Source: Zhaonella formicivorans (GTDB lineage: Bacteria > Bacillota > DUOV01 > Zhaonellaceae). From it: a DNA stretch of 64,000 bases. Under the pieces are notes generated by a model, which saw nothing but the letters and a program-made list of their open reading frames with translations, made no database searches and was not told the DNA's origin. The first letter of the stretch is position 1, and every line of letters begins with the position of its first letter. A program made the position numbers and the translations under genes. The stretch lies in assembly GCF_004353525.1 (NCBI RefSeq), contig NZ_CP085524.1:2080142-2144141 (forward strand), given 5' to 3'. Positions 3,438 through 28,177 of this stretch are shown one piece after another.

Positions 3438-3440
3438 AAA

Positions 3441-5498: not shown

Positions 5499-5530
5499 TT
5501 TTAATTGTTCCCTCCTAAAAAACTCTTAGC

Positions 5531-5593
5531 TTATTTGATTATAGATAAGAGCAGCGAAAGCAGTAGAAAAGCTATTCTTGACACAATACCCAT
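5531..5593 (-). CDS. Chimeric 20-residue ORF: island start fused to the secG 3' end
   Basis: The ORF MGIVSRIAFLLLSLLLSIIK ends with the exact C-terminus of SecG encoded at 30266-30490. The first codons come from island DNA. AAGGAG lies nine bases before the ATG, so translation is possible. It marks where the duplicated segment was cut inside secG and is most simply a by-product of the island junction. The peptide would be a lone hydrophobic helix. No function is claimed. Confidence 0.45.
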   Translation of the reverse strand: MGIVSRIAFLLLSLLLSIIK

Positions 5594-6433: not shown

Positions 6434-6455
6434 CTTTGTGGCCTCCAATACGTGC

Positions 6456-7073
6456 TTATTTACTTCTAATTAACTTTAGAATATTTTTTCCCAGTTGGCG
6501 ACAAGCTTCTAAAGCTACTAAGTCCTCTTCAACTCCCTTTTTCCAGGCGAATCCTTCGACATTATAATCTTGTTGCAAAGTGCCCATCGCTCCATTAGCA
6601 ATAATACCTCGCTCTGGGTCTCGACAATCTGCAACAATAAGTCCTTGGCTTTTTAAATAATTTTCCATAATGCTTAGACATAATTCCTGACCACCATTGC
6701 GTAATGCGGCATGAGTCAAAGCCGCTCCTACCTTACCTTGCAACATGTTTTTGTTCAAATGCATAAAACGTGTACGATCCATAAAATTTTTCATTAAAGT
6801 GCTCACGTTGGCCCAGTAAACCGGTGAGCCTAATATAATAGCATCTGCCTCTTGTAACTTAGTGGCAAGTAGATCCATATCGTCTCCGGTAATGCTACAA
6901 CTTGTATTCTTCATACATTTGTTACAGGAAGTACAAAGTTTAATATCATAATCAACAAGTTCGATCAATTCAGTTTCTACATTATCCTTTGCCACTTCAT
7001 CCAATACGGTCTTTAACATTATTGACGTATTCTTACCCTTCCTATGACTTCCGCTGACTGCTATTACTTTCAC
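6456..7073 (-). CDS. Flavodoxin-fold iron-sulfur flavoprotein (NADPH-dependent FMN reductase family), 1
   Basis: A 205-residue flavodoxin-like protein. The FMN phosphate loop is SGSHRKGKNTS (7-17). The cysteine cluster CTSCNKCMKNTSC (about 47-59) is the compact CX2CX2CX4-7C pattern of archaeal and clostridial iron-sulfur flavoproteins that bind one 4Fe-4S cluster. LGSPVYWANVS contacts the flavin. The start is GTG with a G-rich ribosome site. It lies 30 bp after thiolase 1 and just before the amidohydrolase. A second member of the family (10928-11725) sits in the same gene run. Such proteins carry single electrons or reduce enones; the partner is unknown. Confidence 0.85.
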   Translation of the reverse strand: MKVIAVSGSHRKGKNTSIMLKTVLDEVAKDNVETELIELVDYDIKLCTSCNKCMKNTSCSITGDDMDLLATKLQEADAIILGSPVYWANVSTLMKNFMDRTRFMHLNKNMLQGKVGAALTHAALRNGGQELCLSIMENYLKSQGLIVADCRDPERGIIANGAMGTLQQDYNVEGFAWKKGVEEDLVALEACRQLGKNILKLIRSK

Positions 7074-7103
7074 AAAGGTTTCCCCCCTGATGTTACTTAA
7101 AAG

Positions 7104-8282
7104 TTACCGTTTTACAACTAGTGCCGTACCCATACCTCCACCAATGCATAGTGTAGCTAGCCCAATCTTCAGGTCTCTTCTTTCCATTTCAGATAGCAGT
7201 GTTACCAAAATACGCGTACCGGTGCAGCCGATGGGATGTCCCAGAGCAAGAGCCCCTCCATTTACGTTGACCTTAGCTGTATCCCACTTAAGTGCTCTAT
7301 TAACGGAAATCGCCTGGGCAGCAAATGCCTCATTAGCTTCAATTAAATCTAAATCATCAACAGTTAGATTAGCTTTTTTCAATGCCTTTTTTACAGCTTC
7401 AATGGGCCCTGTTCCCATAATCGAAGGATCCACGCCCGCGGATGCATAGCTAAGGATACTAGCTAGCGGTTTTATACCAAGGCGATCCGCCTTTTCTTTC
7501 GCCATCACTACCACAGCAGCAGCCCCGTCATTGATACCGGAAGAATTTCCAGCAGTTACAGTACCGTCTTTTTTAAAAGCAGGTTTCAATTTACTTAAAC
7601 TTTCTATAGTTGTACCAAACCTTGGGAATTCATCAGTATCGAATATTTTGGGGTCTCCTTTTTTCTGGGGGACCTCTATAGGTACAATTTCTTTTGCAAA
7701 TCTTCCTTCCTTGATAGCGGCTTCTGCTTTTTGTTGGCTAGAAACGGCAAAATAGTCCTGCTCTTCTCGGGAAATATTAAATTGTTCTGCAATATTCTCT
7801 GCTGTAATTCCCATGTGGTAATTATTAAATGCATCCCACAGCCCGTCTTTAATCATGGCATCCACAAGAGCTCTATCACCCATGCGCTGCCCCCACCTGG
7901 CCTCTGGCAACAAATAGGGAGCGGCACTCATGTTTTCCATGCCCCCTGCCACAATAATATCCGAGTCTCCTGACTTAATCGTCTGTGCCGCCAATTGCAC
8001 GGCTTTTAGCCCCGAACCGCAGACTTTGTTAATGGTATAGGCCGGTATTTCTTTGGGAATAGCTGCTTCCATTGCAGCCTGTCTAGCCGGATTCTGTCCC
8101 AGTCCCGCCTGCAACACGTTACCCATAATGACTTCGTCCACCTGCTCAGGTTGAATTCCGGCCCTTTTTAGCGCTTCTTTAATCACTATGGCTCCCAAAG
8201 TAACGGCAGGAATATTCTTTAAACTTCCGTTAAAATTACCAATAGCAGTTCGGCACATCCCAGCAATAACAACTTCTCTCAT
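7104..8282 (-). CDS. Thiolase (acetyl-CoA C-acyltransferase), island copy 1
   Basis: A 392-residue thiolase that would cleave 3-ketoacyl-CoA with CoA, or condense acetyl-CoA in reverse. The acyl-accepting Cys88 lies in [12 protein letters not shown]. The C-terminal [17 protein letters not shown] supplies the catalytic His, and LCIGGGMG the second Cys. The start is ATG 8282 because AAGGGAGGTAACAAA precedes it; the frame is open further upstream to 8339 without such a site. It follows the crotonase by 56 bp in operon 3. It is a close relative of, but distinct from, thiolase 2 at 11840-13021, which suggests different chain lengths or separate steps. Confidence 0.93.
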
Positions 8283-8338
8283 TTTGTTACCTCCCTTAAA
8301 GTGATCTTGCCATCGCTCTTTAAGCATGTATAGGAACA

Positions 8339-9112
8339 TTATTTGCCCGTAAAGTTCGGAGATCTTTTTTCAAAGAAAGCCGCTACGCCTTCCTTAGCAT
8401 CTTCGCTAGCGAATACAATGGCAGAACCTTCTCTTTCAATAGACAGCCCCTGTTCAAAACTAGTATTAAGCCCCTGGGTCACCCCTCTTAAAAATTCTCT
8501 AATGGCGATAGGAGCCCCTTTGGCTAGCTTGGCTGCTAGCGTTTTCGCTTCCTCCAATACCTTTTCAGCCTCTACCACTTTGTTCACAAGGCCGTAATTT
8601 AATGCATTTTCAGGGCTAATGGGATCACCAGTTAATAACATTTCTAACGCTCTTGTTTTTCCAATCAACCTTGGCAACCTCTGGGTACCTCCCCATCCTG
8701 TTGTAATTCCCAATTTTACTTCAGGAAAAGACAAGGAGGCATTGGAAGACAAAATGCGGAGATGACAGCTCATAATGAGCTCATTTCCACCTCCAAAAGC
8801 ACTGCCCTGTATAGCTGCAATAATGGGTTTCGGATAGTTTTCAATTTTATTAAAGAGATTCTGCCCAATCGTCGTAGGAATTTTTCCGGATCTTATATCT
8901 TCAAATTCATTGATGTCCGCACCGGCTGAGAATACTTTTTTACCTGAACCGGTAATAACAATGGCCCTTACATTATCATCATTAACGCATTTGTCCAATA
9001 ACTGTTCCAATTCTAATAAAACAGCAGTACTCAATGCATTAGCAGGTGGGTTATTAATGAAAACTATTATAAACCCCTCTTCTTGTTCTACAATGAGCTT
9101 GGAAAACTCCAT
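8339..9112 (-). CDS. Enoyl-CoA hydratase/isomerase (crotonase family)
   Basis: A 257-residue crotonase-fold protein that hydrates 2-enoyl-CoA to 3-hydroxyacyl-CoA. The oxyanion-hole and acid residues are visible in [20 protein letters not shown] and [19 protein letters not shown], and both catalytic Glu positions of classical hydratases (in GGNEL and FPEV) are present. GAGAGG precedes ATG. It sits between the SDR and thiolase 1, so the run provides hydration, oxidation and thiolysis in order. A ring-opening hydrolase role, as in some aromatic pathways, cannot be excluded from sequence alone. Confidence 0.92.
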
Positions 9113-9153
9113 ACCAATCCTCTCCCCGCATGTGGTATGGGCAGGTACTTTTT

Positions 9154-9894
9154 TTAGGTATAAAGCCCGCCATCTACCCGAATTGTTTCGCCGTTGATAT
9201 AACTAGATTCATCAGAAGCTAAAAATACTGCCACATTCGCAATTTCTTCAGCAGTCCCTAACCTTCCTATAGGTACAGATTTTTTAATTCCATCCAAGAT
9301 ATTCTCCGGTATGGTTTCCACCATTTCTGTACTAATAAAGCCAGGTGCGATGGCATTTGCCCTGATGCCTTTACGCCCAAGTTCCTTAGCCCATGTTTTC
9401 ATCATAGAAATCATGGCTCCTTTAGTTGCAGAATAGTTGGTTTGACCCACGTTTCCGTACAATCCCACGACTGAAGATATATTTATGATGTTACCTGACC
9501 CTTGATTACGCATGATAGCTCCTATTATACTGGTACAATTAAACACACCTGTTAAATTGATATCAATAACTTCCTTCCACTGCTCGGGAGTCATCTTATG
9601 CAGCATAGCATCTCGGGTAATACCGGCATTATTTATCAGGATATCGATGCGACCAAAAGCTTTAATGGCCTCTTCAGCTAGCATCTGTACCTGATCATAA
9701 TCGGCAATGTTCGCTCTAACACTAATTACTTCAGCACCCAGCGCCCGTATCATTTCCACCGTCTCATCAATCGCCTTCTGATTTCCCCCGTTAACAACGA
9801 CCTTTGCACCTTCTTTGGCCATTGCTACTGCAATCGCCCGGCCTATCCCCCTGCTTGAACCGGTAATAACTGCAACTTTATTTGCTAAACGCAT
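9154..9894 (-). CDS. Short-chain dehydrogenase/reductase, FabG-like 3-oxoacyl reductase
   Basis: A 246-residue classical SDR. It has the nucleotide motif TGSSRGIGRAIA (11-22), NNAG near 89, the Ser of SSVVGLYG and YSATK as the Ser-Tyr-Lys catalytic set, and PGFISTEM. It is close to FabG and acetoacetyl-CoA reductases. Because it sits among CoA-handling genes rather than fatty-acid synthesis genes, oxidation of a 3-hydroxy- or ring-hydroxy-acyl-CoA is more likely than a role in lipid synthesis. The strong site GGAGGAGGA lies before the ATG. The gap to the upstream dehydrogenase is 24 bp. Confidence 0.9.
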   Translation of the reverse strand: MRLANKVAVITGSSRGIGRAIAVAMAKEGAKVVVNGGNQKAIDETVEMIRALGAEVISVRANIADYDQVQMLAEEAIKAFGRIDILINNAGITRDAMLHKMTPEQWKEVIDINLTGVFNCTSIIGAIMRNQGSGNIINISSVVGLYGNVGQTNYSATKGAMISMMKTWAKELGRKGIRANAIAPGFISTEMVETIPENILDGIKKSVPIGRLGTAEEIANVAVFLASDESSYINGETIRVDGGLYT

Positions 9895-9918
9895 GTTCCT
9901 CCTCCTCCAAATAAAGAA

Positions 9919-10788
9919 TCAAATTTTTTTCCCGTTTTCATCATAACGGTAAAAACCATGGTTAACTTTTCTTCCTAACCGTCCCGCCTCAACCATTCGT
10001 TTTAGTAAGGACGGAGGAAAATACGCCTCATTGTTCAAATCGTGATAAACATTCTCCAAAGAGTGCAGCAGAACGTCGGTACCGGTAAGGTCTGCTAACT
10101 CCAATGGTCCCATAGGCATGCCATAACCCAAACGCATTCCCTTATCAATATCCTCAGCAGTTCCTATCCCTTCTGTGAGTACATCTATTGCTGCTTTCAT
10201 ATATGCTAAGCCTATTCTATTGACAATAAATCCTCCGAAATCTTTTTGCACCACAATGGTCTCTTTCCCCATCCGGGTACCAATATCTTGAACAGCACGC
10301 ACTGTTTCATCGGAGGTCAATTGCCCCCGAACTATTTCCAGTAATTTCATCATAGGCACCGGGCTGAAGAAATGCATCCCAACTACTTTATCAGGTCGAT
10401 TCGTCACACTGGCAATTTTACTGATGGGAAGCGCTGAGGTATTGGTCGCCAAAATTGTATTAGTTGGGCATATACTCTCCAGCTGCCTAAAAATACGCAA
10501 CTTAAGATCAAGGTCTTCATAAACAGCCTCAATGACTAAATCTACTTCTTCCGCTCTTGCTAATTCTGTTGTGAAGTCAATCCGTGCCAAAATCTCAACT
10601 TTCTCAGAAACAGTAATTTTTTCTTTCTTTACAAAACGTTCAAGTGAGAATTGAATACTTTTTTGCGCTTTTTCCAATGCCTGTAGCGAAATATCTTGTA
10701 ATATTACACTCATTTTTCCTTGTGCCGCTACTTGAGCAATACCACTCCCCATTAGTCCAGCCCCGACAATGAAAATCTTTTCCCCCAT
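9919..10788 (-). CDS. 3-hydroxyacyl-CoA (3-hydroxybutyryl-CoA) dehydrogenase
   Basis: A 289-residue enzyme that oxidises 3-hydroxyacyl-CoA with NAD(P). It has the Rossmann motif IFIVGAGLMGSGIAQ, the catalytic His in GMHFFSPVPMMKLLEIV and the C-terminal domain motif DFGGFIVNRI. Length and motifs match clostridial Hbd. The start is ATG 10788, because the purine-rich AAAGAGGTGAG lies nine bases upstream; the GTG at 10800 overlaps that site. It follows a perfect 13-bp hairpin at 10871-10901, so expression relative to the upstream flavoprotein gene may be reduced. Confidence 0.93.
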   Translation of the reverse strand: MGEKIFIVGAGLMGSGIAQVAAQGKMSVILQDISLQALEKAQKSIQFSLERFVKKEKITVSEKVEILARIDFTTELARAEEVDLVIEAVYEDLDLKLRIFRQLESICPTNTILATNTSALPISKIASVTNRPDKVVGMHFFSPVPMMKLLEIVRGQLTSDETVRAVQDIGTRMGKETIVVQKDFGGFIVNRIGLAYMKAAIDVLTEGIGTAEDIDKGMRLGYGMPMGPLELADLTGTDVLLHSLENVYHDLNNEAYFPPSLLKRMVEAGRLGRKVNHGFYRYDENGKKI

Positions 10789-10870
10789 TTCTTCTCTCAC
10801 CTCTTTATAATTTTTTCTATGAAAGAGTCAACATTTTTTGGTCATAATACTGGGGCACCTGCTGTTATAA

Positions 10871-10901
10871 ACAAGGAAACTCATAGCTTGAGTTTCCTTG
10901 T
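10871..10901 (-). terminator. Perfect 13-bp hairpin between flavoprotein 2 and the dehydrogenase gene
   Basis: ACAAGGAAACTCA pairs perfectly with its reverse complement around a five-base loop. On the minus strand it is followed only by TTATAA, so it is either a weak terminator or an RNA-stability element inside operon 3. Confidence 0.55.
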
Positions 10902-10927
10902 CTCTGATTTTAATTAATGGGTTTATC

Positions 10928-11725
10928 TTAATTAGGAGATTTGACCGATTCCAATTTATCCGAGTGGTATGGTACCTCAGCTAAAGCTTCTCCTTTAGCA
11001 GCCTGGATTTCCCTTGCCACTTTGGAAATGGATAATATATGAGGATCAATCCCATCTTTAACCAGCGCCAGTTTACCAGCTTTTACAATTCGAGCCACTT
11101 CAACCATACGTTTTACAATATCTTGTCCGCCTTTTAAGCCCCATTCATCTTGCAAAACCTGTAATTTATCATTAGGATCAAATTTACTTGTACCACCAAT
11201 ACTGGAGAAAGCATGTGCCCCGAAAAAGGCTCCGGAATGGTGAACGCTTACCGGTATCATTTCATCACATAGATATCCTTCATAAATGCTTAATAATGCA
11301 CTTTCAATTCCACCGGAACGTAGCCAAGCCACTGACAAAGCGCCACCTACCTTATTTTTCATCATTCCCCGATATGTTCCAAACATAAATGCTCTGGTTC
11401 TATCAATCACACATGCTGTATAACCTGATAACCGCGAAATATATACTGGAGTGGCAATTAACAAGGCATCAGCATCAAGGATTTTTTGGAACCATGGTTG
11501 CATATCATCGTTAATGGCACAATATTTTCCTTCTTCTCTATGAGTCATACACCAGTTGCACTGGTTACAGCTTTTAATATTTTTTCCTGCAGTTGTTACC
11601 CATTCATATTCTACATTTTCCAGCTGATCGCATACAGCCAGTGAGTTTTTTAAAAAAGTCTCAGTATTACCTCCTTTAACCGGACTACCACAAATAGCAA
11701 AAATCTTTACCTTTGGAACACTCAT
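10928..11725 (-). CDS. Flavodoxin-fold iron-sulfur flavoprotein, 2
   Basis: A 265-residue member of the NADPH-dependent FMN reductase/iron-sulfur flavoprotein family. It has the FMN loop GSPVKGGNTETF (13-24), the cluster motif SCNQCNWCMTHREEGKYC and the flavin contact ATPVYISRLSG. It is about 60 residues longer than flavoprotein 1, mostly in a C-terminal extension. AAGGAGG precedes ATG. It lies 114 bp after thiolase 2, with a CAATAGA/TCTATTG inverted repeat between them. The presence of two such proteins suggests that one step of the pathway uses a low-potential flavin/Fe-S carrier. The partner is unknown. Confidence 0.83.
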   Translation of the reverse strand: MSVPKVKIFAICGSPVKGGNTETFLKNSLAVCDQLENVEYEWVTTAGKNIKSCNQCNWCMTHREEGKYCAINDDMQPWFQKILDADALLIATPVYISRLSGYTACVIDRTRAFMFGTYRGMMKNKVGGALSVAWLRSGGIESALLSIYEGYLCDEMIPVSVHHSGAFFGAHAFSSIGGTSKFDPNDKLQVLQDEWGLKGGQDIVKRMVEVARIVKAGKLALVKDGIDPHILSISKVAREIQAAKGEALAEVPYHSDKLESVKSPN

Positions 11726-11839
11726 TGATTTTTCCTCCTTTGTAAGTATTAATTATTTTATCGCTCAATAGAAAGTTCTTGACTCTCTATTGGGGCAATA
11801 CAAAAATTGATTGTTAAATCTAAAACAATCCAACACCAA

Positions 11840-13021
11840 CTAAAAAGCCTCTATAATAGTGGCCATTCCTTGGCCTCCGCCAATACACAGAGTGGCAAGA
11901 CCATACTTTAATTCCTGGCGTTGTAATTCATGTATCAAAGTAACCAAAATTCGGGCTCCTGTTGCACCAACAGGGTGACCTAAGGCAATCGCTCCACCGT
12001 TTACATTAGTCTTATCTATATCAAAATCTAACTCTCTCGAAACAGCTAAAGCTTGAGCTGCAAAAGCTTCATTTGATTCGATCAAATCTATTTGTCCTAT
12101 AGACATATTTGCTTTTTCCAGCGCTTTTTTCGTGGCTCCAATCGGCCCTAACCCCATATAAAGAGGATCTACCCCATGAGAGGCGAAAGACACTATACGG
12201 CCTAAAGGTTTTAGTTCATGCTGCTTAACAAATTTTTCCGATGCCAATATCACTGCTGCCGCGGAATCATTAATGCCCGAGGAATTACCAGCAGTCACTG
12301 TACCGTCCTTTTTAAAGACAGGTTTTAAAGCACTAATCTTTTCTAAGCTAACATCTCTTATTGGATGCTCATCTTTATCAAAAATCAAGGTGTCACCCTT
12401 TTTCTGGGGAATTTGTATGGGAACATATTCCCTGTTAAACCGCCCTTCATCAATAGCCTGTATAGCCCTTTTATGGCTTAGAAAAGCAAATTCATCCTGT
12501 TCCAACCTTGTTATTCCATATTTTTCAGCGATATTTTCCGCTGTAACACCCATATGAATATTGTTAATCGCGCAGTGCAAACCATCCCATAACATCCCAT
12601 CCTTAATCTCCGAGTTACCCATGCGGTAACCCCACCGGGAATTCAATAATAAATAAGGAATGTTAGACATGCTTTCTGTCCCTCCGGCAAGAATACAGTC
12701 GGCATCTCCTAACATGATACACTGGGCTCCGAAAGTTATTGCCTTCATTCCAGAGGCACATTGTTTATTAATGGTACTTGCAGGAACTTCATAAGGAACT
12801 CCCGCCCTTATCGCTGCCTGGCGGGCAGGATTTGCTCTGTTCCCGGCCTGAAAAACATTACCTAAAAGTACTTCATCAATTTCTTGTTTCTCTATTCCAG
12901 CTTCACTAATGGCGCTTTTAAAAGCAATTTCAGCCAGCTCGACTGCCGTTAGCTCCTTGAGGGTTCCTCCGTATTTCCCTATGGGCGTTCTTTTGGCGCT
13001 TACTATAAACACTTCATTCAC
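11840..13021 (-). CDS. Thiolase (acetyl-CoA C-acyltransferase), island copy 2
   Basis: Thiolase of about 393 residues with the nucleophile Cys in NKQCASGMKA, GGAIALGHPVGATGARI for the catalytic His, and LCIGGGQGM for the second Cys. GTG 13021 is preferred: AGGAGG lies seven bases upstream, whereas the ATG at 13027 touches that site. The N-terminus then reads MNEVFIVSAKRTPIG, as in relatives. It is the first gene of island operon 3, with a sigma-54-type promoter at 13126-13141 and a palindrome at 13194-13212. It parallels thiolase 1 in the same operon. Confidence 0.93.
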   Translation of the reverse strand: MNEVFIVSAKRTPIGKYGGTLKELTAVELAEIAFKSAISEAGIEKQEIDEVLLGNVFQAGNRANPARQAAIRAGVPYEVPASTINKQCASGMKAITFGAQCIMLGDADCILAGGTESMSNIPYLLLNSRWGYRMGNSEIKDGMLWDGLHCAINNIHMGVTAENIAEKYGITRLEQDEFAFLSHKRAIQAIDEGRFNREYVPIQIPQKKGDTLIFDKDEHPIRDVSLEKISALKPVFKKDGTVTAGNSSGINDSAAAVILASEKFVKQHELKPLGRIVSFASHGVDPLYMGLGPIGATKKALEKANMSIGQIDLIESNEAFAAQALAVSRELDFDIDKTNVNGGAIALGHPVGATGARILVTLIHELQRQELKYGLATLCIGGGQGMATIIEAF

Positions 13022-13125
13022 AATCATTCCTCCTATCTCATAGTTGCACTTACTTTACCGGGCTACCACCGCCAACGCATTTTTTTTATAATTTTTCTGT
13101 TATATCTCATTCGCTATATTCCATA

Positions 13126-13212: not shown

Positions 13213-13310
13213 TTTTAATGGATCATCACTAAAGAATCATACAGAGCTGGAAAAAGTTAAAGTGTATTTAAAGTAAACAGCTATATATAATCTTCATACC
13301 CTGGCGTAAA

Positions 13311-13342
13311 GTAAAGAGCGTGATCGAAGTCACGCTCTTTAC
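13311..13342 (-). terminator. Hairpin after mobA (end of operon 2)
   Basis: A perfect 13-bp stem, GTAAAGAGCGTGA and its complement, with a six-base loop lies just beyond the mobA stop and before the operon 3 control region. The following T tract is short (TTTAC). Confidence 0.65.
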
Positions 13343-13355
13343 TCAATGATGATAT

Positions 13356-13931
13356 CTATAGGTTCTGTGCAATTCCAAATTCTTTTGGCGTATTAATATT
13401 TATAAACATTTTTAGCTCTGGATCCATTTTTTTAAATATTGTTTCAGGAATAGTTTTAACTGCTACTTGGTCATAGAAACTAGTAGCTTTAAGCCAATTT
13501 TTAACCAAGCAATCTTTAATAGGTTCAATACAATTCTTTGAATAAATTCCATATAGAGGCTCAATGTATCCTCCAATAACAGGAACAACTGCATCCCAAT
13601 TTGCTTTTTGTTCTATAATAAACCGAATCGCTTTATCACTAACAAAAGGCATATCACAAGCTATGAAAAAATTATGGTGGGAAGGAGAAACCATGAGACC
13701 TGTATAAATCCCAGCAAGAGGCCCTTTATCTTTAAATAAATCACTTTCAAGCTTTACATTCAAAAAGCTGTATAATTCAGGTTCATTGGTAATAACAATA
13801 ATATTATCTTTAAAAATGGGTTTAAGGACATTGATAATAGTTTCAATAAATGTTCGTCCATTTAATCTAAGGAAAGACTTATTTGATTTCATACGAGAAC
13901 TCTTGCCACCAGCTAGAACGATCCCATACAC
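13356..13931 (-). CDS. mobA: Molybdenum cofactor guanylyltransferase
   Basis: A 191-residue nucleotidyltransferase that joins GMP to molybdopterin to form the guanine dinucleotide cofactor used by DMSO-reductase-family enzymes. The N-terminal motif LAGGKSSRMKSNKSFL binds GTP, and ACDMPFVSDK supplies the metal-binding Asp. The start is GTG with AAGGGAG upstream. It lies 52 bp after the molybdopterin oxidoreductase gene and is the last gene of operon 2. A dedicated mobA in this operon supports a bis-MGD cofactor in the neighbouring enzyme. It is more AT-rich than the housekeeping genes. Confidence 0.92.
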   Translation of the reverse strand: MYGIVLAGGKSSRMKSNKSFLRLNGRTFIETIINVLKPIFKDNIIVITNEPELYSFLNVKLESDLFKDKGPLAGIYTGLMVSPSHHNFFIACDMPFVSDKAIRFIIEQKANWDAVVPVIGGYIEPLYGIYSKNCIEPIKDCLVKNWLKATSFYDQVAVKTIPETIFKKMDPELKMFININTPKEFGIAQNL

Positions 13932-13983
13932 CTTTTATTCTCCCTTCTGATTTCTTTTAACCTCTTTATTCCAAAGATTCGCA

Positions 13984-16065
13984 CTAGCCTTTATAAACCC
14001 GGCAAGGTACACCTCTAGTTTCAACTGTACCTGTCGCTGGTTCAACAGGTTCATTATCTAGAAGTATATTTAAATTCGACTTATCCCACTCGAACATATT
14101 ATTAGGTTTTTCCGGGAACCACCAGCCGAAGGATACATAAATAACTCTAGGATCAAGGTCAGGGTCAAACACAAGTTTTTGCCTGATCTTCCCTTTCTTA
14201 GTTTCGATGGTAACCCAGTCCCCTTCGTTAAGCCCTAATTTCTTGGCTGTTTCGGGATGCATTTCCACCTCCGGCTCAGGTTTATAATTACGCAGATACT
14301 CAACATGCTTAAAGCTAGTTAACTTGTAAGCGTCTTCACACCGATTAGTAAGGAGCAGCGGGTATTGCTCTGAAGGTTGCAAATGCAAACTCGATACCTC
14401 TTCCCACATGGGCACAGGGCTATAACCATACACGTCCTGCATTTGTTTGGAATATATTTCAATCTTGCCTGATGGGGTGTCAAAGGAGCCTTCTTGCAGT
14501 TCCCTTTCCTGCTTGGTTACTGGCAATAAGCCCTTTTCTTTAAACTCTTCCCAAGTCAAACCGCTGGGCTCCATCATATATTCCATTCCGCCTTGTTCAT
14601 TAGCCCAAAAGTATTCTTGCAGACCTAGCCTTTTTGCTAACTCGTTAATCCACTTTATATCAGGCCAAGCTTCTCCGGGTGGATCAACCAGTTTGGGAAA
14701 GGCTCTGAGTGCACCATCTTCTCCCCAATAACCTATAGTATCATGCTCCCCACTGGTAGCCGCGGGCAAAATGATGTCGGCTAAGTGAGCCGTAGGTGTC
14801 ATGAATAAGTCAGCAACCACCACAAATTCTAGTTTTTTAAATGCTTCATAGGCTCTCCTTGCATCAGGATAGCTGGAAAGAGGGTTAGAAACAATGACCA
14901 TAGCCGCCTTAATCGGAAATGGTTTTTCCTCCAGAATTCCTTTTAACAGGGCATGGTGAGGTATATACGCTGTCGCCAACGCCCATTTGTATTCACTGCC
15001 AAGAGTTTTCTCCGGCTTTCTGGGAAACTGCTTCAGCAATATAAAACGGCCCATTCTATTATAAGGAGGTCCTGTAAACGTTGCATCCCAAGCTGGTGTA
15101 TTAGGAGGACCGGAAATACCACGCAAGATATCAATACATCTGTTCGTTTGAAAACTCTTCATGCCGTGACTAATCGCATTCCCTTGATGAATAACGGCAG
15201 GTTTATGGTTAGCATACATTCTGGCTACTTGCTGAATCTGTTCTTTTGGTACCCAAGTCACTTTCTCAACATCATCGAGAGTAAACTTCTTAACTTCTTC
15301 CAAAAGCGCATCAAAGCCAACAGTCAACCTAGCAACGAAATCTTTATCGTAAAGGTTTTCCTCAATGGTTACTTTAAGTATTCCCATAGCCAACGCTGCA
15401 TCGCTACCGGGACGGGGCCGGATCCATAAGTCGGCTCGTTTAGCAATATCTATTTTCTTCGGATCGATAACCACAAGTTTGGAACCTTTTAATAAGGATG
15501 CACGTAGCCACTCCCTTACCAGCGGTCCCCGTGTTTGAGCAGAATTGGCTCCCCAAATTATATGCAAATTAGGTAAATGACTCATGTCATGATGATGAGT
15601 CGGATATTTGCTACCAAATGTAACAGCTGAACTGGCAAGCATGGTGGCACCGCACAGACTTGATGGCGTGGCTACATTAGGTGTACCAAATACGCTAGCG
15701 AATCTCTGAGCAAAGGCAAACTCCAACCCCTTAGGCTCCCCCAAAACCAGGGAGACACACTCTGGTCCATATGTTTCTTTAAGCTTCGTTAGTTTTTCAG
15801 CAATAGTGCCCAATGCTTCATCCCAAGAGATACGCTCCCATTTACCTTCACCTTTGGCACCAACTCTTTTCAGCGGGTACTTGAGACGATCTGGGTGTTT
15901 AGCAATCTCCATATTTGCCTTTCCTTTAAAAGGCGGACATGGTTCACAAGGAAAACCACGTTCAAAATCAGGTTCCCAGTTAATAATCTCACCATTTTCA
16001 ACCGTCGCCTTCGCACTGCAATGACCGGCACATAATGGGCAAAACGTAAGTATTTCCTGTCTCAT
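13984..16065 (-). CDS. Molybdopterin (Mo/W-bis-MGD) oxidoreductase, DMSO-reductase superfamily
   Basis: About 693 residues from ATG 16065, chosen because GAGGGG precedes it; an ATG at 16089 has a weaker site. The N-terminal FCPLCAGHC plus a later Cys (RGFPCEPC) fits a 4Fe-4S site. LKRVGAKGEGKWERISWDEAL, VIDPKKIDIAKRADLWI and the C-terminal cofactor domain are typical of the superfamily. Cys in SSLCGATM is the likely metal ligand. The layout resembles the acetylene-hydratase/dehydroxylase branch, whose members also catalyse non-redox hydration or reductive dehydroxylation. No Tat signal is visible, so it is probably cytoplasmic. It is flanked by HdrD-like and dehydratase-like genes. The reaction is not known. 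Confidence 0.88.
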   Translation of the reverse strand: MRQEILTFCPLCAGHCSAKATVENGEIINWEPDFERGFPCEPCPPFKGKANMEIAKHPDRLKYPLKRVGAKGEGKWERISWDEALGTIAEKLTKLKETYGPECVSLVLGEPKGLEFAFAQRFASVFGTPNVATPSSLCGATMLASSAVTFGSKYPTHHHDMSHLPNLHIIWGANSAQTRGPLVREWLRASLLKGSKLVVIDPKKIDIAKRADLWIRPRPGSDAALAMGILKVTIEENLYDKDFVARLTVGFDALLEEVKKFTLDDVEKVTWVPKEQIQQVARMYANHKPAVIHQGNAISHGMKSFQTNRCIDILRGISGPPNTPAWDATFTGPPYNRMGRFILLKQFPRKPEKTLGSEYKWALATAYIPHHALLKGILEEKPFPIKAAMVIVSNPLSSYPDARRAYEAFKKLEFVVVADLFMTPTAHLADIILPAATSGEHDTIGYWGEDGALRAFPKLVDPPGEAWPDIKWINELAKRLGLQEYFWANEQGGMEYMMEPSGLTWEEFKEKGLLPVTKQERELQEGSFDTPSGKIEIYSKQMQDVYGYSPVPMWEEVSSLHLQPSEQYPLLLTNRCEDAYKLTSFKHVEYLRNYKPEPEVEMHPETAKKLGLNEGDWVTIETKKGKIRQKLVFDPDLDPRVIYVSFGWWFPEKPNNMFEWDKSNLNILLDNEPVEPATGTVETRGVPCRVYKG

Positions 16066-16099
16066 TTTCCATCCCCTCTCTCTTTTCATTTCACCGAAT

Positions 16100-17380
16100 C
16101 TACCGTAAAAGTTCCGTGATATGCATGACCTTTACAGGAAGTTTATGTCTGACACAGTTATCCATTATTTGAATCATACAGCCTGGACAATCAGTGACTA
16201 GAATATCAGCTCCGGAATCCTTTATAGATTCAATTTTCTTATCCGCAATCTTCTTGGAAGTTTCATAATATTTAATGCTAAAAGTTCCAGCCATACCGCA
16301 GCACCAATCTGGGCGTGTCATCTCCACGAAATTGATGTCAGGTATTGATTTTAGAATTTGCCTTGGCTGCTTGGTGATACCCATATAGCGGTTGAGATGG
16401 CAAGGATCATGCCAAGTAATTGTTTTGCCCTTAACTTCAGGTGCGACCTTGTAGCTAGATGCAGGCAATTGTAATACATCTACCAAAAACTCGGTAATAT
16501 CTTTTAACTTTGAGGCAAAATTTCGATAAGCCTCTTTTCTTTCCGGTGTATCGGCCAAAAATTTTTCGTAGTCCGATATGGAAGAGATACAAGTAGCGCA
16601 ATTACAGATGATATACTCCACATCAAGGTCAGCAAATGCCCGAATATTAGCATCTGCCAGTTTCCTGCCGGTTTCAAAATCACCGGCTCCCTGATAAACT
16701 GGAGTTCCACAGCAGCCCTGTTCTTTTGGAAATACCACTTCCACCCCATGGTTGTTTAATATTTCAATGATGTTCTTACCAACTTGAGGGAAGACGAAGT
16801 CTGTCATACAACCGGAAAAGTATCCTACTCTCATTTTTTTTGTGCCTGACGACGGCTTACTGACTTCTGGAACTAGTTGCCTAAGAAATTTGGGAGCTAT
16901 GGAAGGTATATTCCGTCCCTTACCCAAAGCAGTAAGAAAAAGTGGCAGATGCCTGATGGTCCCTTCCGTCTTAGGTAGAAAACCCTGAAACCAAGAAGCA
17001 ATCCTGACTGTATTACCAAACAACACACGACGAGGTATAAGCCAGCGATAAATAAAACTGTAAGGGAAAGGCAAACCCTGTGCTTTAGTCTTATCTGCCC
17101 GGCTGGCTATAATGGTAGATTGGGTCTCAGTTGAACCCTGACAATGCTCCGCACAGGTCCCGCATAACATACACCGGTTCAACTTATCTTCGTAATCAGC
17201 ATCGTTTTCACTCTCACCGGCCAGCAAAGCTTTTAACATCTTGATCTTACCTCTGGCAACAGACGACTCCCGAGGATCCTCCTGGTAGATAGGACACCAT
17301 AAGGTACAGTAACCACACCCGGTACATTTGTCCAGTTGACACTTGAATCTTTCTAATTCACTATTGTTCTTACTGATCAT
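16100..17380 (-). CDS. Fe-S protein of the HdrD/GlcF (CCG-domain) family
   Basis: About 426 residues with two 4Fe-4S motifs near the N-terminus (CTGCGYCTLWCP and CMLCGTCAEHC), then two cysteine-rich CCG domains (GYFSGCMTDF…EQGCCGTP…NCATC and DPCHLNR…WCCGMAG…CPGC). This arrangement occurs in heterodisulfide reductase subunit D, glycolate oxidase GlcF and related electron-transfer subunits. ATG 17380 begins one base after the stop of the upstream gene, so translation is probably coupled; a TTG at 17398 is less likely. It probably passes electrons to or from the neighbouring molybdoenzyme or the dehydratase-like subunit. No membrane helices were seen. Confidence 0.88.
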   Translation of the reverse strand: MISKNNSELERFKCQLDKCTGCGYCTLWCPIYQEDPRESSVARGKIKMLKALLAGESENDADYEDKLNRCMLCGTCAEHCQGSTETQSTIIASRADKTKAQGLPFPYSFIYRWLIPRRVLFGNTVRIASWFQGFLPKTEGTIRHLPLFLTALGKGRNIPSIAPKFLRQLVPEVSKPSSGTKKMRVGYFSGCMTDFVFPQVGKNIIEILNNHGVEVVFPKEQGCCGTPVYQGAGDFETGRKLADANIRAFADLDVEYIICNCATCISSISDYEKFLADTPERKEAYRNFASKLKDITEFLVDVLQLPASSYKVAPEVKGKTITWHDPCHLNRYMGITKQPRQILKSIPDINFVEMTRPDWCCGMAGTFSIKYYETSKKIADKKIESIKDSGADILVTDCPGCMIQIMDNCVRHKLPVKVMHITELLR

Positions 17381-17381
17381 C

Positions 17382-18416
17382 CTAAGACTTCCCTTCAAAA
17401 TGTAGTTTTTTCTTATTAATAGCTTCCTTGAACTCCTGAATTTGAGCAGTTATTTGTTCCTGTGAAATACCCGCGTCTTCCCCCGCTAGAAACAACACTG
17501 GAATGCCCATTTCATTAAAGCGTTTTCTTACCTCAGGAGAATCAAAAAGATACGAATCACAGTATTTTTCAAGTAAAACTACAACACCGTCAACTTTGTT
17601 AATCTGTGCTTTCTGACAAAAGTGGTCCATACGAAGATTTTCAGGAAACATGCAAGTACATGGCATACTTTTTAGGTACCTTTCCGCCAGAGCAGTGATA
17701 GGTGGTTTTGTTTCATCAACCAGGTTTTCAAAATACCTTGAACCGGTACATAAGTCGTCACTAACAATTTGCAAGCCATTATTCTCCATCAACCGAATTA
17801 AACCCAGATCTGTCAAAATACTACCGGAAAGATGTACCCTAAACTTATCGATTTTTTGTCCTATTGCAGGCCTGGCGTCGCTCACCAATGCCTCTAAGAG
17901 AGGAATACTTTCTTCCCTACTTATCCCCATTGAACCATGAATAGCTTCATACAGAATTGAGGAATCTAAATTCCCTTGCCGTCTTGCTATGTCAAGTTCG
18001 TGAAAAAGGCTCCGGCTTCGATTGTATATTTGTATAGATTTTAAGAGCGCTTCTTCTGATATAACACAGTTAATTAGCTCTTTTTCCATACTATTAATTA
18101 AAATTTCAATTTCTTTTTCAAAAGTTATAATTGATTCATCAGCCCTTGGATCTGGAATAGAAAGATGATGGTGAAATTTTCCAGAAAAGGTCTCGTAAGG
18201 ATGTGACGACACAACCCCATCCAGAAAATCGCATTCCTTTAGAACTAAATCGATTTTGCTACCAGCAATTATCCTAAAGGGTAACACACCTGCAGCATGA
18301 AGCAGTTCTTCCGGAAGACAACTGCAAAAATATCCAATCACTTTACCTCCGTTTTCATGCCATTTAATTGCAATATCTCTAGCCGATTCATAGACACTAG
18401 CAGCCTCTCTTCCCAT
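17382..18416 (-). CDS. Benzoyl-CoA reductase / 2-hydroxyacyl-CoA dehydratase (HgdB/BcrB/BcrC) family subunit
   Basis: A 344-residue member of the family that includes HgdB/HgdA and the Bcr/Bzd subunits, in which a Fe-S cluster delivers a low-potential electron to an acyl-CoA ring or hydroxyl. Recognisable segments are KVIGYFCSCLPEELLHAAGVLPFRI near 25-49, DDLCTGSRYFE and LEKYCDSY, giving three candidate cluster cysteines. Only one such subunit is present, and no ATP-dependent activase (BcrA/BcrD, HgdC) is in the window. That is unusual, because the known enzymes are heterodimers with an activase. It is the first gene of operon 2, with AAGGAG before the ATG and a sigma-54-type promoter at 18454-18469. 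Substrate unknown. Confidence 0.85.
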   Translation of the reverse strand: MGREAASVYESARDIAIKWHENGGKVIGYFCSCLPEELLHAAGVLPFRIIAGSKIDLVLKECDFLDGVVSSHPYETFSGKFHHHLSIPDPRADESIITFEKEIEILINSMEKELINCVISEEALLKSIQIYNRSRSLFHELDIARRQGNLDSSILYEAIHGSMGISREESIPLLEALVSDARPAIGQKIDKFRVHLSGSILTDLGLIRLMENNGLQIVSDDLCTGSRYFENLVDETKPPITALAERYLKSMPCTCMFPENLRMDHFCQKAQINKVDGVVVLLEKYCDSYLFDSPEVRKRFNEMGIPVLFLAGEDAGISQEQITAQIQEFKEAINKKKLHFEGKS

Positions 18417-18655: not shown

Positions 18656-18691
18656 AAAAAAAACCCCGGCTCCAAAAAGACCCGGGTGGTT
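18656..18691 (-). terminator. Intrinsic terminator downstream of the benE operon and gene relic
   Basis: On the minus strand a CCCGG/CCGGG stem, extended by AAC/GTT, is followed by eight T. It lies 16 bp after the stop of the decayed frame at 18707-18892 and upstream of the operon 2 control region. Confidence 0.75.
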
Positions 18692-19153: not shown

Positions 19154-19907
19154 TTATAGGGAAGCAGTCTGTTGCTTCCTGAATTCTGCATAGTCCTTAC
19201 CTTCCAAAAGCAAGGAGACAAGACACCCTCCCAGCAAAGCCCAGAAGGCGGCACTTATTTGTAGTACGGTGATATTAGAGGCTCCAATAATAAAGGCAAA
19301 GAATCCACCCATTAAAAACTTTCCTTCAGCAAATGTATCAATTAAGGAACTGCTGACAACCCTTAACATAGCTAACCCAGCGACAATGGTCACTAAGGGT
19401 TTTGGGATAACTGCTAAAAAGGCAACCAAAGGAATTACAAAAGGCCCTGCAATACCGTAAAAGAAGTCGTTTAAAAAGCTGGCTCCGTATCTAAGTTCCT
19501 TTTTACCCACTTCCGGGGAACAAGTCATCACCGTCATTGGGCCAGCAATGTTCACGTTATGAATCCCCAAAAAAGGTCCCAAGGTACCAAAAATGCCGCT
19601 ATAAATAGTCATGGCATTAACTGGGGGATCATAACCAAGTGCTTTAAGAACTCCGATAGACTGGGCATTTTCTGCTCCAATAACCAGAATTGCTAAAGGT
19701 ATTCCTACAGAAATAGCTGCCATCAAGTTGAACTGAGGCTTAACAAACATGGGACCAGTCAAAGTAAAATGAACTCCGGAGAAATCGGGAGAACCGGTAA
19801 CTATAAAAGCGATTACTCCAAAAACTAATGCGCCTAAAGCTCCAGGGATATTTTTCATAAAGCGGGCAACTAATAAATAACCACCCATGCCTGGAAGGCA
19901 CAACCAA
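19154..19907 (-). pseudogene. benE: benE, 3' part (separated by IS110 insertion)
   Basis: C-terminal 250 residues of a BenE-family benzoate/H+ symporter, a multi-span membrane importer. It resumes at WLCLPGMGGYLLVARF and includes LVIGAENAQSIGVLKALGY and GIHNVNIAGPMTVMTCSPEVG, conserved in BenE. Removing bases 19908-21529 joins this part in frame to the 5' part (…GAAFIG + WLCLPG…), giving a 423-residue protein of normal length. An internal ATG at 19903 would permit only a truncated product. Confidence 0.88.
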
Positions 19908-19924
19908 TCATGAAAATTAGCTAA

Positions 19925-20144
19925 GTTATTGCAAAGGTTGGATTTTTTGCTACATTGAAATTATCAGGGACAAAGGTTGATTTTATTTTGATGGTATAAC
20001 CTCGTTAAATAACCTAACTTGATTGCTTTTGAGCACAGCCAATTGTCGCCCCTTGTTCTTAAGGACTTGGGAACAGCACGGGTACTAAAATCTTTATTTC
20101 TCGAGCAATCATCCCTGAAATTCTTTGGAGCAGGAGTGAGTTAC
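19925..20144 (+). ncRNA. Candidate IS110 bridge RNA region
   Basis: A non-coding left end before the transposase ATG. It contains short inverted segments such as GGTATAACC and AAGTTA/TAACTT-like pairs and has no ORF. The assignment rests on its position in the element (known for IS110-group transposons) rather than on a folded structure that I could verify. Confidence 0.35.
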
Positions 20145-21389
20145 ATGCAAGACATCCTGGAAATATGTTGTGGTCTTGATGTCCACAAAGAAACGGTTGT
20201 AGCCTGCCTATTAAAAGGCAATGTTGACGGGGAACCGGTTAAAACCATCCGCACCTTTTCCACCCTTCTTGCCGGGCTAGATGAAATGAAAGTTTGGCTA
20301 GAAAATGAGAACTGTCGGCATGTTGCAATGGAAAGCACCGGCATCTATTGGCAGCCTGTATATAACGTGTTGGAAGAAGCCTTTGACGGCAGTATGGTTT
20401 TGATTGTTGCCAATGCCCGGCATATGAAAAATGTACCCGGTAAAAAGACCGACATGAAGGACGCCGAATGGATAGCTACCCTTTGCGTGCCGGATTATTA
20501 GAAGGAAGTTTTGTTCCTCCAAACCAATCCGGGAACTCCGTAATCTGACCCGGTACCGCAAAAGTATCATCGAGGAAATTACGTCACAGAAAAACCGGAT
20601 CGAAAAACACTTACAAAGCTGCGGCTTTAAGCTCTCTACCTTCCTGACCGATATCTTCGGCGTATCGGGCCGGGCGATTATGGATCATCTTAGCCACCAT
20701 GGGAAAATATCCGCCCGGGAAGTAGAGAATTTTGTAAAGGGGCGTGCTAAGAATAAGCTCCATGAGATCAAACAGGCTGTCAATGGCAAAATGGATGTTC
20801 ATCAAAGAGAGTTTCTAAAGCTATTGTTAGGTTGGCTAGATCAGCATTACGAGCATCTCCGTCAAGTAGAGCAAAACTTAGAAGAAAAACTGGCTCAGTA
20901 TCAAAGACAACTAGAGCAACTAGACGGCATACCGGGCATTGATAAAACTGCAGCAGCAGCCATTTTGGCGGAAATCGGAATTGATATGAGTCGTTTTAAA
21001 ACCGCTGAACATATCTGTTCCTGGGCGGGCTTAAGCCCCGGTAACAATGAAAGTGCAGGAAAAAAAAGTCCACTCGTACCACCAACGGTAACACCTATTT
21101 AAAACGGATCCTATGTGAAGTTGCTTGGTGCATCACCCGAATACGTCAAAGCTACTTATCATCCTGGTATTGGAAAATCAAACAACGCCGTGGCGCCAAA
21201 AAAGCTCTTGTTGCATTAGCCAGAAAAGTTCTCGTAATAATATACAACCTGTTAAAAAATGATGCTGATTACGATGAAACATCCTTTGAAAAAGCCAAAC
21301 AAAAACAGGAAAAGTTCCGAGTTAAAAGGATTATTGCTGAAGCTAAGAAACTAGGTCTGGAGGTGATAGAACCCCACGAGGTTGCTTAA
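20145..21389 (+). pseudogene. IS110 transposase, three frameshifts
   Basis: DEDD-type IS110 transposase. The N-terminal RuvC-like domain shows CCGLDVHKETVVAC, MESTGIYWQPVYNVLEE and KTDMKDAEWIATL. The C-terminal transposase_20 domain shows DGIPGIDKTAAAAILAEIG and FKTAEHICSWAGLSPGNNESAGKK. GGAGCAGGAGTGAG precedes ATG 20145. Restoring one base near 20487 (after ACCCTT), one near 20520 (CCTCCAAA) and one in the A run near 21067 gives a single frame of about 415 residues ending EVIEPHEVA. All three losses are in short homopolymers, so sequencing error is a real alternative. Confidence 0.85.
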
Positions 21390-21529
21390 CAGCTACAATG
21401 GTTTTTCCAAAAGAATTAATTTCACTGATGCAAGATCTGCATTGGCTAGTTAATTATTACCTTTTTACGGGTTATCCTGGTTGCCATATGCAGTTGTTAA
21501 AGAATATTTCAAATTTATTTTCGTACTAA

Positions 21530-22047
21530 CCTATAAACGCGGCTCCGGCCACAACAGGTGCATCCTGTATGGCCCCCGGAATACCGGTTACAAACCTTAA
21601 AAGCACTCCGGCAGTCATACCCAGTACAACAGGCATGGGTAAGATCGCCATTACTTTTTTTATAGTACCTGTTACTCCAAGAAGAAAGACGATAATACCT
21701 GCCACGACGGCAGCTCCATATAATTCATTGATAGTAAAACTAGTTGCAGCTGTAGCAAACATTACACCCCCCGTGATAGACGATGCTCCTGCAATTGGTT
21801 TTTTATAATATAAATTTAGAAACCAACATAAAAAGCCCCCTAAAACATGAACAGCGAACAACCAGCCAACAATTGCTCCATTTGGCCAACCACCTTCTTG
21901 TGCAGATTTAATAAAAATTACATCCACACTTATCCCAAAAATTGCCGCTATTAATGCTTGACTAATCGCGGGAGTTGTAAAAGTTTTTGGCAAATCTTTA
22001 ATACCAGAGGCATAACCTGGTCCTTTTTCAAACCAGTGAAAGTTCAT
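21530..22047 (-). pseudogene. benE: benE, 5' part (separated by IS110 insertion)
   Basis: The first 172-173 codons of the BenE-type benzoate transporter, up to VVAGAAFIG. After that the frame runs into the IS and stops within a codon. It starts MNFHWFEKGPG after GAGGAGGTAG and carries about five hydrophobic segments. It lies 43 bp downstream of the acyl-CoA ligase gene in operon 1, pairing uptake with CoA activation. The unbroken protein would give aromatic-acid uptake. In this strain uptake must be passive or use another carrier. Confidence 0.87.
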
Positions 22048-22089: not shown

Positions 22090-23736
22090 TCAACCTACAT
22101 TCTTTTTTTTCTTCATTTCTTCTTGTTTTCTTAATACGTTTCTTTGGATTTTTCCAGTAGAAGTTCTTGGAAGCTCATCTGCTTTCGCAAATTCGATCTC
22201 CCGGGGGTATTTATATTCAGCCAAGTGTTTTTTCGTATACTCCTGTAATTCAACTATCAGCTCCTCAGATGGTTCATAACCTTCCTTAAGGACTACGAAT
22301 GCTTTGACGATATTTTGTCTAATTGGGTCAGGCGAAGCTACAACTGCAGATTCCAAGACGGCTGGATGCTCATTAAGAACAGCCTCTACTTCACCTCCAG
22401 GAATCTTATAGCCTGAAGTGACAATCATATCATCAGTACGACCTTTGTACCAAAAATACCCATCTTCATCTTGAACAAAAGTTAACCCTGGGCGACTCCA
22501 ACCATTCCATACCCCTTTCATCTGTGCCTCTGGTTTTTTCCAGTAAACTTGACCGAAGGGGCCACGAACAACAAGTTCACCCTCCGTCCCCCTGGGAACT
22601 TCATTAAAATTTTCATCGACAACTTTGTTTTCCACACCCGGAACAGATATCCCAGTGGAGCCAATCTTATTTTCCGGCACACCTTCCCGTGTTGATAACC
22701 AATACATCAAATCCCCTGAACCTAATGAATCAAGAATCTCCACACCAAGTACTTTCTTGCAATCCCGCATGGTACTAGCCGGCAACCATTCACCAGCACT
22801 CTGGCACAGTCTTAAAGAACTAACGTCATATTTTACATCGCTTTTTTCGTAATAATCAATCATCATTCTAAAAGCAGTTGGAACACATGCACATACAGTT
22901 ATCTTATGCTTTTCAATGATTTCAAACATTTTATCCGGTTTGAACCGATCTATAATTGAAAGTGTACATCCAACACGCCATGGCTCAAAGGTAAAGTTTA
23001 CCGAACCAAATGCAAATGTAAAAAATGGGTGACCGCCTACTATGTCATTTTCCGTCAACTTTAAAACATATTTGCCATGGGTATCACAAACCGCCAAAAT
23101 GTCAGAATAATTACAGACAATGCCTTTAGGCTTCCCGGTGGTACCCGAACTGTAAATGAGCCGTCCAATATTGAATTTGGTTGTTGCCGCCGACTCACAT
23201 ACATCTGATTCTCCTGCCATTAATTCTTCCATACTCAGATGACCTTCATGGCTTCCCCCAAAAACAACAAAGTGTTTCACCGTTTCAAGCTCATTTTTTA
23301 CAGCATCTACGTCTTCTACAACATCTTTTCGGGATAGAACCACCAAAGCTTCCGAATTATTTGCCCGGTATGAAATTTCTTCCCCTTTGACTAAATGATT
23401 ACATAATACTGGGATAGCACCAATCCTCCAGCAGGCAAAATTTGCAATAATATATTCCGGGGTATTAGGTGCGCGCAACATTACCCGATCATTTTCTTTA
23501 ACACCCAATTTTATGAGGGCATTTGCGAAACGATTCACTTTATTTTGCAGGTCTAAGTAAGTAATTTTTTGGTCTTCAAAAAGAATCGCATTTTTGCTTG
23601 GGTTCTTTTGTACATGATTATCCAGTAATTCAACTGCTAGATTAATTTTTTCAGGATAGTTTAGTTCCGGCAAAGCAAAAATTTTATCCGGTAGATATTC
23701 TTTGGGACCAATATAATTCCCCGGAAAGTTAAACAA
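22090..23736 (-). CDS. Aryl/acyl-CoA ligase (benzoate-CoA ligase-like, AMP-forming)
   Basis: Activates a carboxylic acid to its CoA thioester with ATP, forming an acyl-AMP intermediate. It has the P-loop YSSGTTGKPKGI, the A5-like motif LDSLGSGDLMYW, the hinge region YKGRTDDMIVTSGYKIPGGEVE and the C-terminal catalytic Lys in PRTSTGKIQR. The segment around PFFTFAFGSVNFTFEPWRVG resembles benzoate and aminobenzoate ligases. The start is taken at TTG 23736, behind AAGGAGGAGG, giving 548 residues; the frame is open to 23775 but that includes the ribosome site. It is the first gene of operon 1, ahead of benE, which supports a benzoate-like substrate. The exact acid is inferred, not shown. Confidence 0.88.
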   Translation of the reverse strand: MFNFPGNYIGPKEYLPDKIFALPELNYPEKINLAVELLDNHVQKNPSKNAILFEDQKITYLDLQNKVNRFANALIKLGVKENDRVMLRAPNTPEYIIANFACWRIGAIPVLCNHLVKGEEISYRANNSEALVVLSRKDVVEDVDAVKNELETVKHFVVFGGSHEGHLSMEELMAGESDVCESAATTKFNIGRLIYSSGTTGKPKGIVCNYSDILAVCDTHGKYVLKLTENDIVGGHPFFTFAFGSVNFTFEPWRVGCTLSIIDRFKPDKMFEIIEKHKITVCACVPTAFRMMIDYYEKSDVKYDVSSLRLCQSAGEWLPASTMRDCKKVLGVEILDSLGSGDLMYWLSTREGVPENKIGSTGISVPGVENKVVDENFNEVPRGTEGELVVRGPFGQVYWKKPEAQMKGVWNGWSRPGLTFVQDEDGYFWYKGRTDDMIVTSGYKIPGGEVEAVLNEHPAVLESAVVASPDPIRQNIVKAFVVLKEGYEPSEELIVELQEYTKKHLAEYKYPREIEFAKADELPRTSTGKIQRNVLRKQEEMKKKKNVG

Positions 23737-23790
23737 ATTAACCTCCTCCTTTTCATAATCTACGCAGTTGGCCAACCACTATTATATCCA

Positions 23791-25295: not shown

Positions 25296-25383
25296 GCATT
25301 AGGCTGGCAAGTGCCGTATGCATAAAAAAGCTGCATCTTTCTGCATTTTTTACTTGCAAAAAACATCCTTTGGAGGAATGTGG

Positions 25384-27993: not shown

Positions 27994-28177
27994 ACTCCTC
28001 CCCCTTCCGGTCGAAAGCGAACCAGCTTTCAGCCATCAGCTATAAGCTGTCAGCTTTATTTTATATTTAGCCATAGTACATGTACTTAGTCAAGATTAAC
28101 AGCAATTACCATGCCACTGAAAGGAATATGTTATCTCAGCTAAAAGCAACGGCTGAAGGCTTACAGCTGAGGCTAAA

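Follow-up and report, generated by a model that had tools for sequence, protein, structure and literature searches.

A four-gene operon joining a molybdoenzyme to a ligand-depleted BzdN-type subunit in a putatively acquired island of Zhaonella formicivorans

Introduction

What could a single subunit of the benzoyl-coenzyme A (CoA) reductase type be doing in an operon whose other members are an iron-sulphur (Fe-S) protein, a molybdoenzyme and a MobA-like protein? The question is raised by a locus at positions 13,356 to 18,416 of a 64,000-nucleotide stretch of the Zhaonella formicivorans genome, which is referred to as a whole as the window. In the initial annotation the four genes were proposed to encode a new dearomatising or dehydroxylating complex, with a catalytic benzoyl-CoA reductase (BCR)-like subunit and with the molybdoenzyme or the Fe-S protein taking the place of the ATP-driven activase. 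The reading preferred here is a different one, held tentatively at a probability of about 0.45, namely that the operon encodes a redox Mo/W enzyme of an acquired, CoA-ligase-linked acid pathway, together with a subunit of BzdN type that has been remodelled or is decaying.

Gene content and operon layout

The operon and its promoter comprise the following features:

17382..18416, minus strand: BzdN/HgdD-type subunit of 344 amino acids (aa); PF06050 188 bits, best phmmer match BzdN, alignments and an AlphaFold2 model
16100..17398, minus strand: GlcF/LdhH-type Fe-S protein, 432 aa; PF02754 143 bits, LdhH C-terminal half 354 bits
13984..16089, minus strand: Mo/W-bis-molybdopterin guanine dinucleotide (MGD) enzyme of the dimethyl sulfoxide (DMSO)-reductase superfamily, 701 aa; PF00384 146 bits, PF01568 71 bits
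13356..13931, minus strand: MobA-like nucleotidyltransferase (MGD cofactor assembly), 191 aa; PF12804 116 bits
18454..18469, minus strand: sigma-54-type promoter motif TGGCATGTATTTTGCT, from a motif scan of the window

All four open reading frames (ORFs) lie on the minus strand where they had first been placed, and their Pfam assignments are HGD-D, CCG plus Fer4, Molybdopterin plus Molydop_binding, and MobA-like NTP transferase, respectively; the NCBIfam MobA models score below their own cut-offs for the last of these. The longest ORF of the Fe-S gene begins at a TTG and overlaps the 344-aa gene, but its likely start is an internal ATG at 17380 that leaves one base between the first two genes. 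Gaps of about 10 and about 52 nucleotides precede the molybdoenzyme gene and mobA. The sigma-54-type motif ends 38 nucleotides upstream of the first start codon; five copies of its consensus, TGGCAY-N5-TTGCW, are present in the window, where 0.31 would be expected. The layout in the initial annotation, a tightly packed four-gene unit behind one sigma-54-type site, is thereby confirmed. The five sites, all on the minus strand, lie at 3364, 13126, 18454, 28101 and 48974, and two of them precede transcription units of the genomic island described below.

The 344-aa BzdN-type protein

The first protein of the operon has the three-domain fold common to BCRs and 2-hydroxyacyl-CoA dehydratases (HADs), as judged from an AlphaFold2 model with a mean predicted local distance difference test score (pLDDT) of 90.2 and a predicted template-modelling score (pTM) of 0.90. 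The top Foldseek match of this model in the PDB is BzdN (8s02_B, TM-score 0.88), which is also the best phmmer match (97.9 bits) and thus its best solved relative. In the tree the protein falls inside the N-type clade (support 100/100), apart from the alpha subunits and the double-cubane cluster proteins (DCCP); its end branch, at 1.39, is the longest in the clade, compared with a median end branch of 0.34 for the tree. Sequence and tree together assign it to the electron-storing BzdN branch and not to the catalytic BzdO branch.

BzdN carries an [8Fe-9S] double cubane on Cys36, Cys73, Cys100, Cys263, Cys293 and Cys327 (PMC11971306). According to phmmer alignments, C31, C223, C253 and C286 of the 344-aa protein are the equivalents of Cys36, Cys263, Cys293 and Cys327, while Cys73 falls within a deletion and Cys100 is replaced by a Tyr, leaving four of the six ligands. 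Both of the lost columns are Cys in every other full-length relative aligned (82/82). Alpha subunits carry exactly the columns of Cys73, Cys100 and Cys327 and none of the other ligand columns, and the BzdO cluster occupies the proximal position (PMC11971306); on this basis the two lost Cys residues are assigned to the proximal sub-cluster, and three of the retained ones, the equivalents of Cys36, Cys263 and Cys293, to the distal one. Aligned in this way, the protein lacks two of the three ligands of the proximal [4Fe-4S] sub-cluster and keeps all three distal ligands. The wider conservation pattern is similar: the protein retains 30 of 35 near-invariant positions, and of the remaining five, four fall in the proximal-cluster region. 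A frameshift as the origin of the missing Cys residues was rejected, since the deletions are in frame and their flanks align.

In the BzdNO structure it is BzdO and not BzdN that holds the benzoyl head and the catalytic [4Fe-4S]-OH2 cluster (PMC11971306). For the subunit described as lone in the window, a PF06050 search of the whole one-contig genome returned no BCR-type partner either. Apart from the 344-aa protein itself, the search matched a genuine DCCP, encoded together with its activase, and, weakly, three genes associated with activases. The absence of an activase holds for the window and the island, although the genome does encode BcrAD/BadFG-type activases elsewhere, associated with other proteins (at the DCCP locus L009 and at L010 and L011). 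A search of the genome for the ring hydrolase of the benzoyl-CoA pathway, 6-oxocyclohex-1-ene-1-carbonyl-CoA hydrolase (Oah; TIGR03200), gave a best score of 54 bits against a cut-off of 464. There are six proteins of the aldehyde oxidoreductase (AOR) family in the genome, and a class II BCR was rejected because each of the five tested scores higher against aldehyde oxidoreductases than against BamB; inspection by eye showed no BamD-I-like genes nearby, and there are no BamC-I genes. As far as these sequence searches go, neither a class I nor a class II BCR was found in the genome, which the initial annotation had itself suggested checking.

That neither BCR class nor Oah was found, that a CoA ligase and a BenE-type transporter lie nearby and that an electron carrier is present would all suit a novel dearomatising or dehydroxylating complex built around a catalytic BCR-like subunit. 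It is nevertheless an improbable explanation, as the subunit is of the N type, the BzdO-type protein that should hold substrate and catalytic cluster is missing, and two of the six cluster ligands are gone; the absence of Oah also speaks against a standard benzoyl-CoA route.

The genomic distribution of these genes was also surveyed. With the 344-aa protein alone as query, 84,980 species genomes yielded no close relative of it, whereas an alignment-based scan gave 238 relatives, 80 of which were kept for locus inspection. In nearly all of the kept loci with readable flanks the homologue stands beside an alpha subunit, often with activases, and in none of the 80 does it adjoin any of the other operon genes. 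Each of 399 genomes of the same phylum was searched without a match above 40% identity to the 344-aa protein, the Fe-S protein or the molybdoenzyme, the family- and class-level searches covered three genomes, and a plasmid collection gave distant matches only. The same four-gene set was found neither in any other neighbourhood examined nor, as a published description, in the open-licence literature. The initial annotation had made its complex depend on the four genes occurring together in other genomes, and as far as sampled they do not; what recurs elsewhere instead is the molybdoenzyme beside a CoA ligase.

The molybdoenzyme and its relatives

The 701-aa protein contains both the molybdopterin and the dinucleotide-binding domain and belongs to the DMSO-reductase superfamily. 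Its best PDB match is acetylene hydratase (2e7z) with 302 bits, the next match having 214, and its predicted Mo ligand, Cys146, matches Cys141 of that enzyme, a position that is Cys or TGA-encoded in nearly all relatives. In place of Asp13, which adjoins the second cluster Cys of acetylene hydratase, the window enzyme however has Ala21, and the near relatives at loci L242, L243, L244 and L253 likewise lack an Asp there. Acetylene hydratase is inactive when Asp13 is changed to Ala (PMC12096430). The resemblance proposed in the initial annotation thus stands at the family level, but annotation as acetylene hydratase was rejected because the catalytic Asp is missing.

The nearest relatives found, up to 48% identical, come from genomes belonging to the same phylum as a deltaproteobacterial metagenome-assembled genome. 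The best of them (48%, genome G790, locus L242) directly follows a CoA ligase that is 49% identical to the ligase in the window (22090..23775) and is the top match to it among 2,534 ORFs fetched. Relatives adjoin CoA ligases at L242, L244, L216 and L217, and a second relative from G790, at L253, adjoins genes that by eye are AsrA- and AsrB-like electron-transfer genes. In the L242 relative (7926-10097) the Mo-ligand codon itself is an in-frame TGA, which suggests a candidate selenoprotein in the acetylene-hydratase-like branch.

Because the relatives sit with electron-transfer genes and CoA ligases, and one has a TGA at the Mo-ligand codon, redox chemistry is favoured, and the molybdoenzyme is best regarded as a probable redox enzyme of CoA-ligase-dependent pathways. 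The alternative of a non-redox hydratase, with the Fe-S protein as a bystander, draws on the clear lead of acetylene hydratase among PDB matches and on the shared Cys ligand. With Ala at the position of an essential Asp (PMC12096430), and with relatives of such company and such a ligand codon, it is considered very improbable, more so than any other explanation discussed here.

The Fe-S protein

The second protein of the operon combines two [4Fe-4S] motifs with a complete pair of CCG domains (PF02754 in two stretches, and Fer4_8), the make-up of GlcF/LdhH-type proteins. It had been described as HdrD-like; it is indeed a CCG-domain protein, but HdrD proper was rejected as LdhH and GlcF match better. 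Relatives at E-values below 1e-75 are encoded by 72 of the 399 same-phylum genomes, mostly at 33-40% identity, and adjoin a protein of 459-485 aa that by eye is a putative GlcD-type oxidase linked to flavin adenine dinucleotide (FAD). This FAD-linked partner is absent beside the Fe-S protein of the window, where the molybdoenzyme stands in its place.

The genomic island

The operon lies within a 22-kb low-GC stretch, with a GC content of 0.40-0.41 compared with 0.465-0.49 on either side and a clearly different GC content at third codon positions. The main surrounding features are as follows:

2867..5575, unstranded: left copy of a 2.7-kb direct repeat (proton-translocating pyrophosphatase, H+-PPase, plus 133-aa thioesterase), 99.8% identical to the right copy
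27604..30310, unstranded: right copy of the 2.7-kb direct repeat, 99.8% identical to the left copy, with the H+-PPase frameshifted near 29050
5618..13027, minus strand: CoA-linked catabolic genes, from family profiles: amidohydrolase_2, flavin mononucleotide (FMN) reductase, thiolase, enoyl-CoA hydratase, short-chain dehydrogenase/reductase (SDR), 3-hydroxyacyl-CoA dehydrogenase, Fe-S flavoprotein, second thiolase
13310..13343, unstranded: 14-bp perfect inverted repeat past mobA, a possible terminator; by eye, unlisted by the terminator scan
18660..18690, minus strand: terminator-like inverted repeat with T-run between benE and the operon; by eye, its loop exceeding the limit of the terminator scan, which leaves it unlisted
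19154..22047, minus strand: benE (benzoate-type transporter), split into an N part at 21526-22047 and a C part at 19154-19903
22090..23775, minus strand: acyl/aryl-CoA ligase, from family profiles and comparison with fetched loci
25318..26799, plus strand: PAS-containing sigma-54 activator, PrdR-like, from sequence annotation

Near-identical repeats flanking the island are the pattern that would be expected if a foreign element had integrated through homologous recombination, and together with the base composition they point to a recent horizontal acquisition. A degraded third H+-PPase remnant at 26907-27459, approximately 83-90% identical to the other copies, adjoins the right repeat. Part of the island is already damaged, since benE is split by an insertion sequence (IS) 110-like element at 20019-21390.

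The locus nearest in gene content, L020, combines alpha, beta and activase genes, a complete two-subunit class-I-like set, with genes 76%, 65% and 63% identical to the Fe-S flavoprotein, the second thiolase and the 3-hydroxyacyl-CoA dehydrogenase of the window, respectively. From this comparison the window cluster looks like an L020-like cluster minus the ATP-driven enzyme. The same-phylum genome that carries L020 (G004) encodes BzdN-type proteins at four loci, L020, L021, L023 and L026, with a BzdO-type gene seen near L020 and L023; L023 also has a gene that by eye resembles a thiamine diphosphate (ThDP)-dependent dione hydrolase. The amidohydrolase_2 protein of the window (5618-6448) may take part in ring or acid degradation, because proteins 46-48% identical to it, at L081, L113, L143 and L139, adjoin class-I-like reductase genes.

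The same comparison lends weight to the possibility that the 344-aa gene is the dying relic of a class-I-like reductase brought in by the island, and that its three operon partners make up a separate enzyme that inherited its promoter. L020 still has the full reductase beside the same thiolase, flavoprotein and dehydrogenase; in the window the partner gene and two universally conserved Cys residues have gone, the protein has the longest end branch of its clade, the neighbouring benE is IS-split and one H+-PPase copy is frameshifted. Against a relic, the ORF and the fold model are intact, the losses cluster in one pocket instead of being scattered, and the gene is predicted to open the sigma-54 transcript, with a single base between it and the gene that follows. 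A relic is accordingly a serious possibility, though on balance a doubtful one.

A tentative model

In the preferred reading, the operon would supply the redox reaction of a pathway, gained by horizontal transfer, in which an organic acid, probably an aromatic or alicyclic one, is broken down via its CoA ester. The 701-aa Mo/W-bis-MGD enzyme would be the catalyst, MobA would help to make its cofactor, and the GlcF-type CCG protein would move electrons to or from the molybdoenzyme in place of the usual FAD-linked dehydrogenase. The 344-aa protein would have begun as the BzdN-type, electron-storing component of a class-I BCR-like enzyme and have lost its catalytic partner. It may still bind a cluster, but because that partner and two of the three proximal ligands have been lost its role would not go beyond that of an accessory subunit for electron transfer or docking. 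The preferred guess at the reaction is a reductive dehydroxylation or a ring or double-bond reduction of an acid or acyl-CoA.

Three points weigh against this model. The 344-aa protein could be a decaying remnant, given the IS-disrupted benE next to it and the length of its branch; the in-frame TGA of the L242 relative is possibly an assembly error; and since the gene set was seen in no other sampled genome, the tie of the 344-aa protein to its neighbours amounts to synteny in one genome.

Comparison with characterised systems

BzdN of BzdNO (8s02) is the closest counterpart of the 344-aa protein in both sequence and fold, and in addition to the four Cys ligands the equivalents of its Arg53 and Arg267 are kept. 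Unlike BzdN, the 344-aa protein lacks the equivalents not only of Cys73 and Cys100 but also of Arg290 and His330, has neither a BzdO partner nor a dedicated activase gene, and has about 30 residues fewer in the region of the proximal cluster. DCCP (6eno, 7yzm), a genuine example of which is encoded with its activase at L009, shares the fold and the distal Cys set, but has all six ligands and its own ATPase and forms a separate clade.

Acetylene hydratase (2e7z), the closest solved relative of the molybdoenzyme, has the same N-terminal [4Fe-4S] motif, a Cys metal ligand and a similar length; it differs in its Asp13, where the window enzyme has Ala, and the window enzyme has electron-transfer and CoA-ligase genes as neighbours. 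The Bam complex of class II BCR is alike in outline, in that a Cys-ligated pterin metal enzyme works with Fe-S carriers and no ATP-driven activase, but BamB has the AOR fold, the window enzyme has the DMSO-reductase fold and BamC-I genes are missing here. In the GlcDF and LdhH glycolate and lactate dehydrogenases the Fe-S protein is of the type seen in the window (GlcF, or the C-terminal half of LdhH), yet the window set has the molybdoenzyme instead of the FAD-linked GlcD-type partner.

Implications

An apparent aromatic-acid-type cluster in a genome in which no dearomatising enzyme was found poses the question of the role of the molybdoenzyme. The boldest answer, which we consider unlikely, is that this member of the DMSO-reductase superfamily acts without ATP as a reductase (or dehydroxylase) of aryl- or acyl-CoA, with a GlcF-type CCG protein feeding it, and has replaced the two-subunit ATP-dependent reductase in the island, the BzdN-type subunit surviving as a distal-[4Fe-4S] electron-transfer piece and a mirror image of the proximal-only BzdO.

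This enzyme family is held to gain new functions by losing one half of the double cubane (PMC11971306). BzdO kept the proximal half, and the 344-aa protein presents the reverse case, in which proximal ligands are missing and the distal set is retained. The authors of the BzdNO study could not make single-cluster variants, as their Cys-to-Ala mutants were unstable (PMC11971306). If functional, the 344-aa protein would be a natural single-cluster variant.

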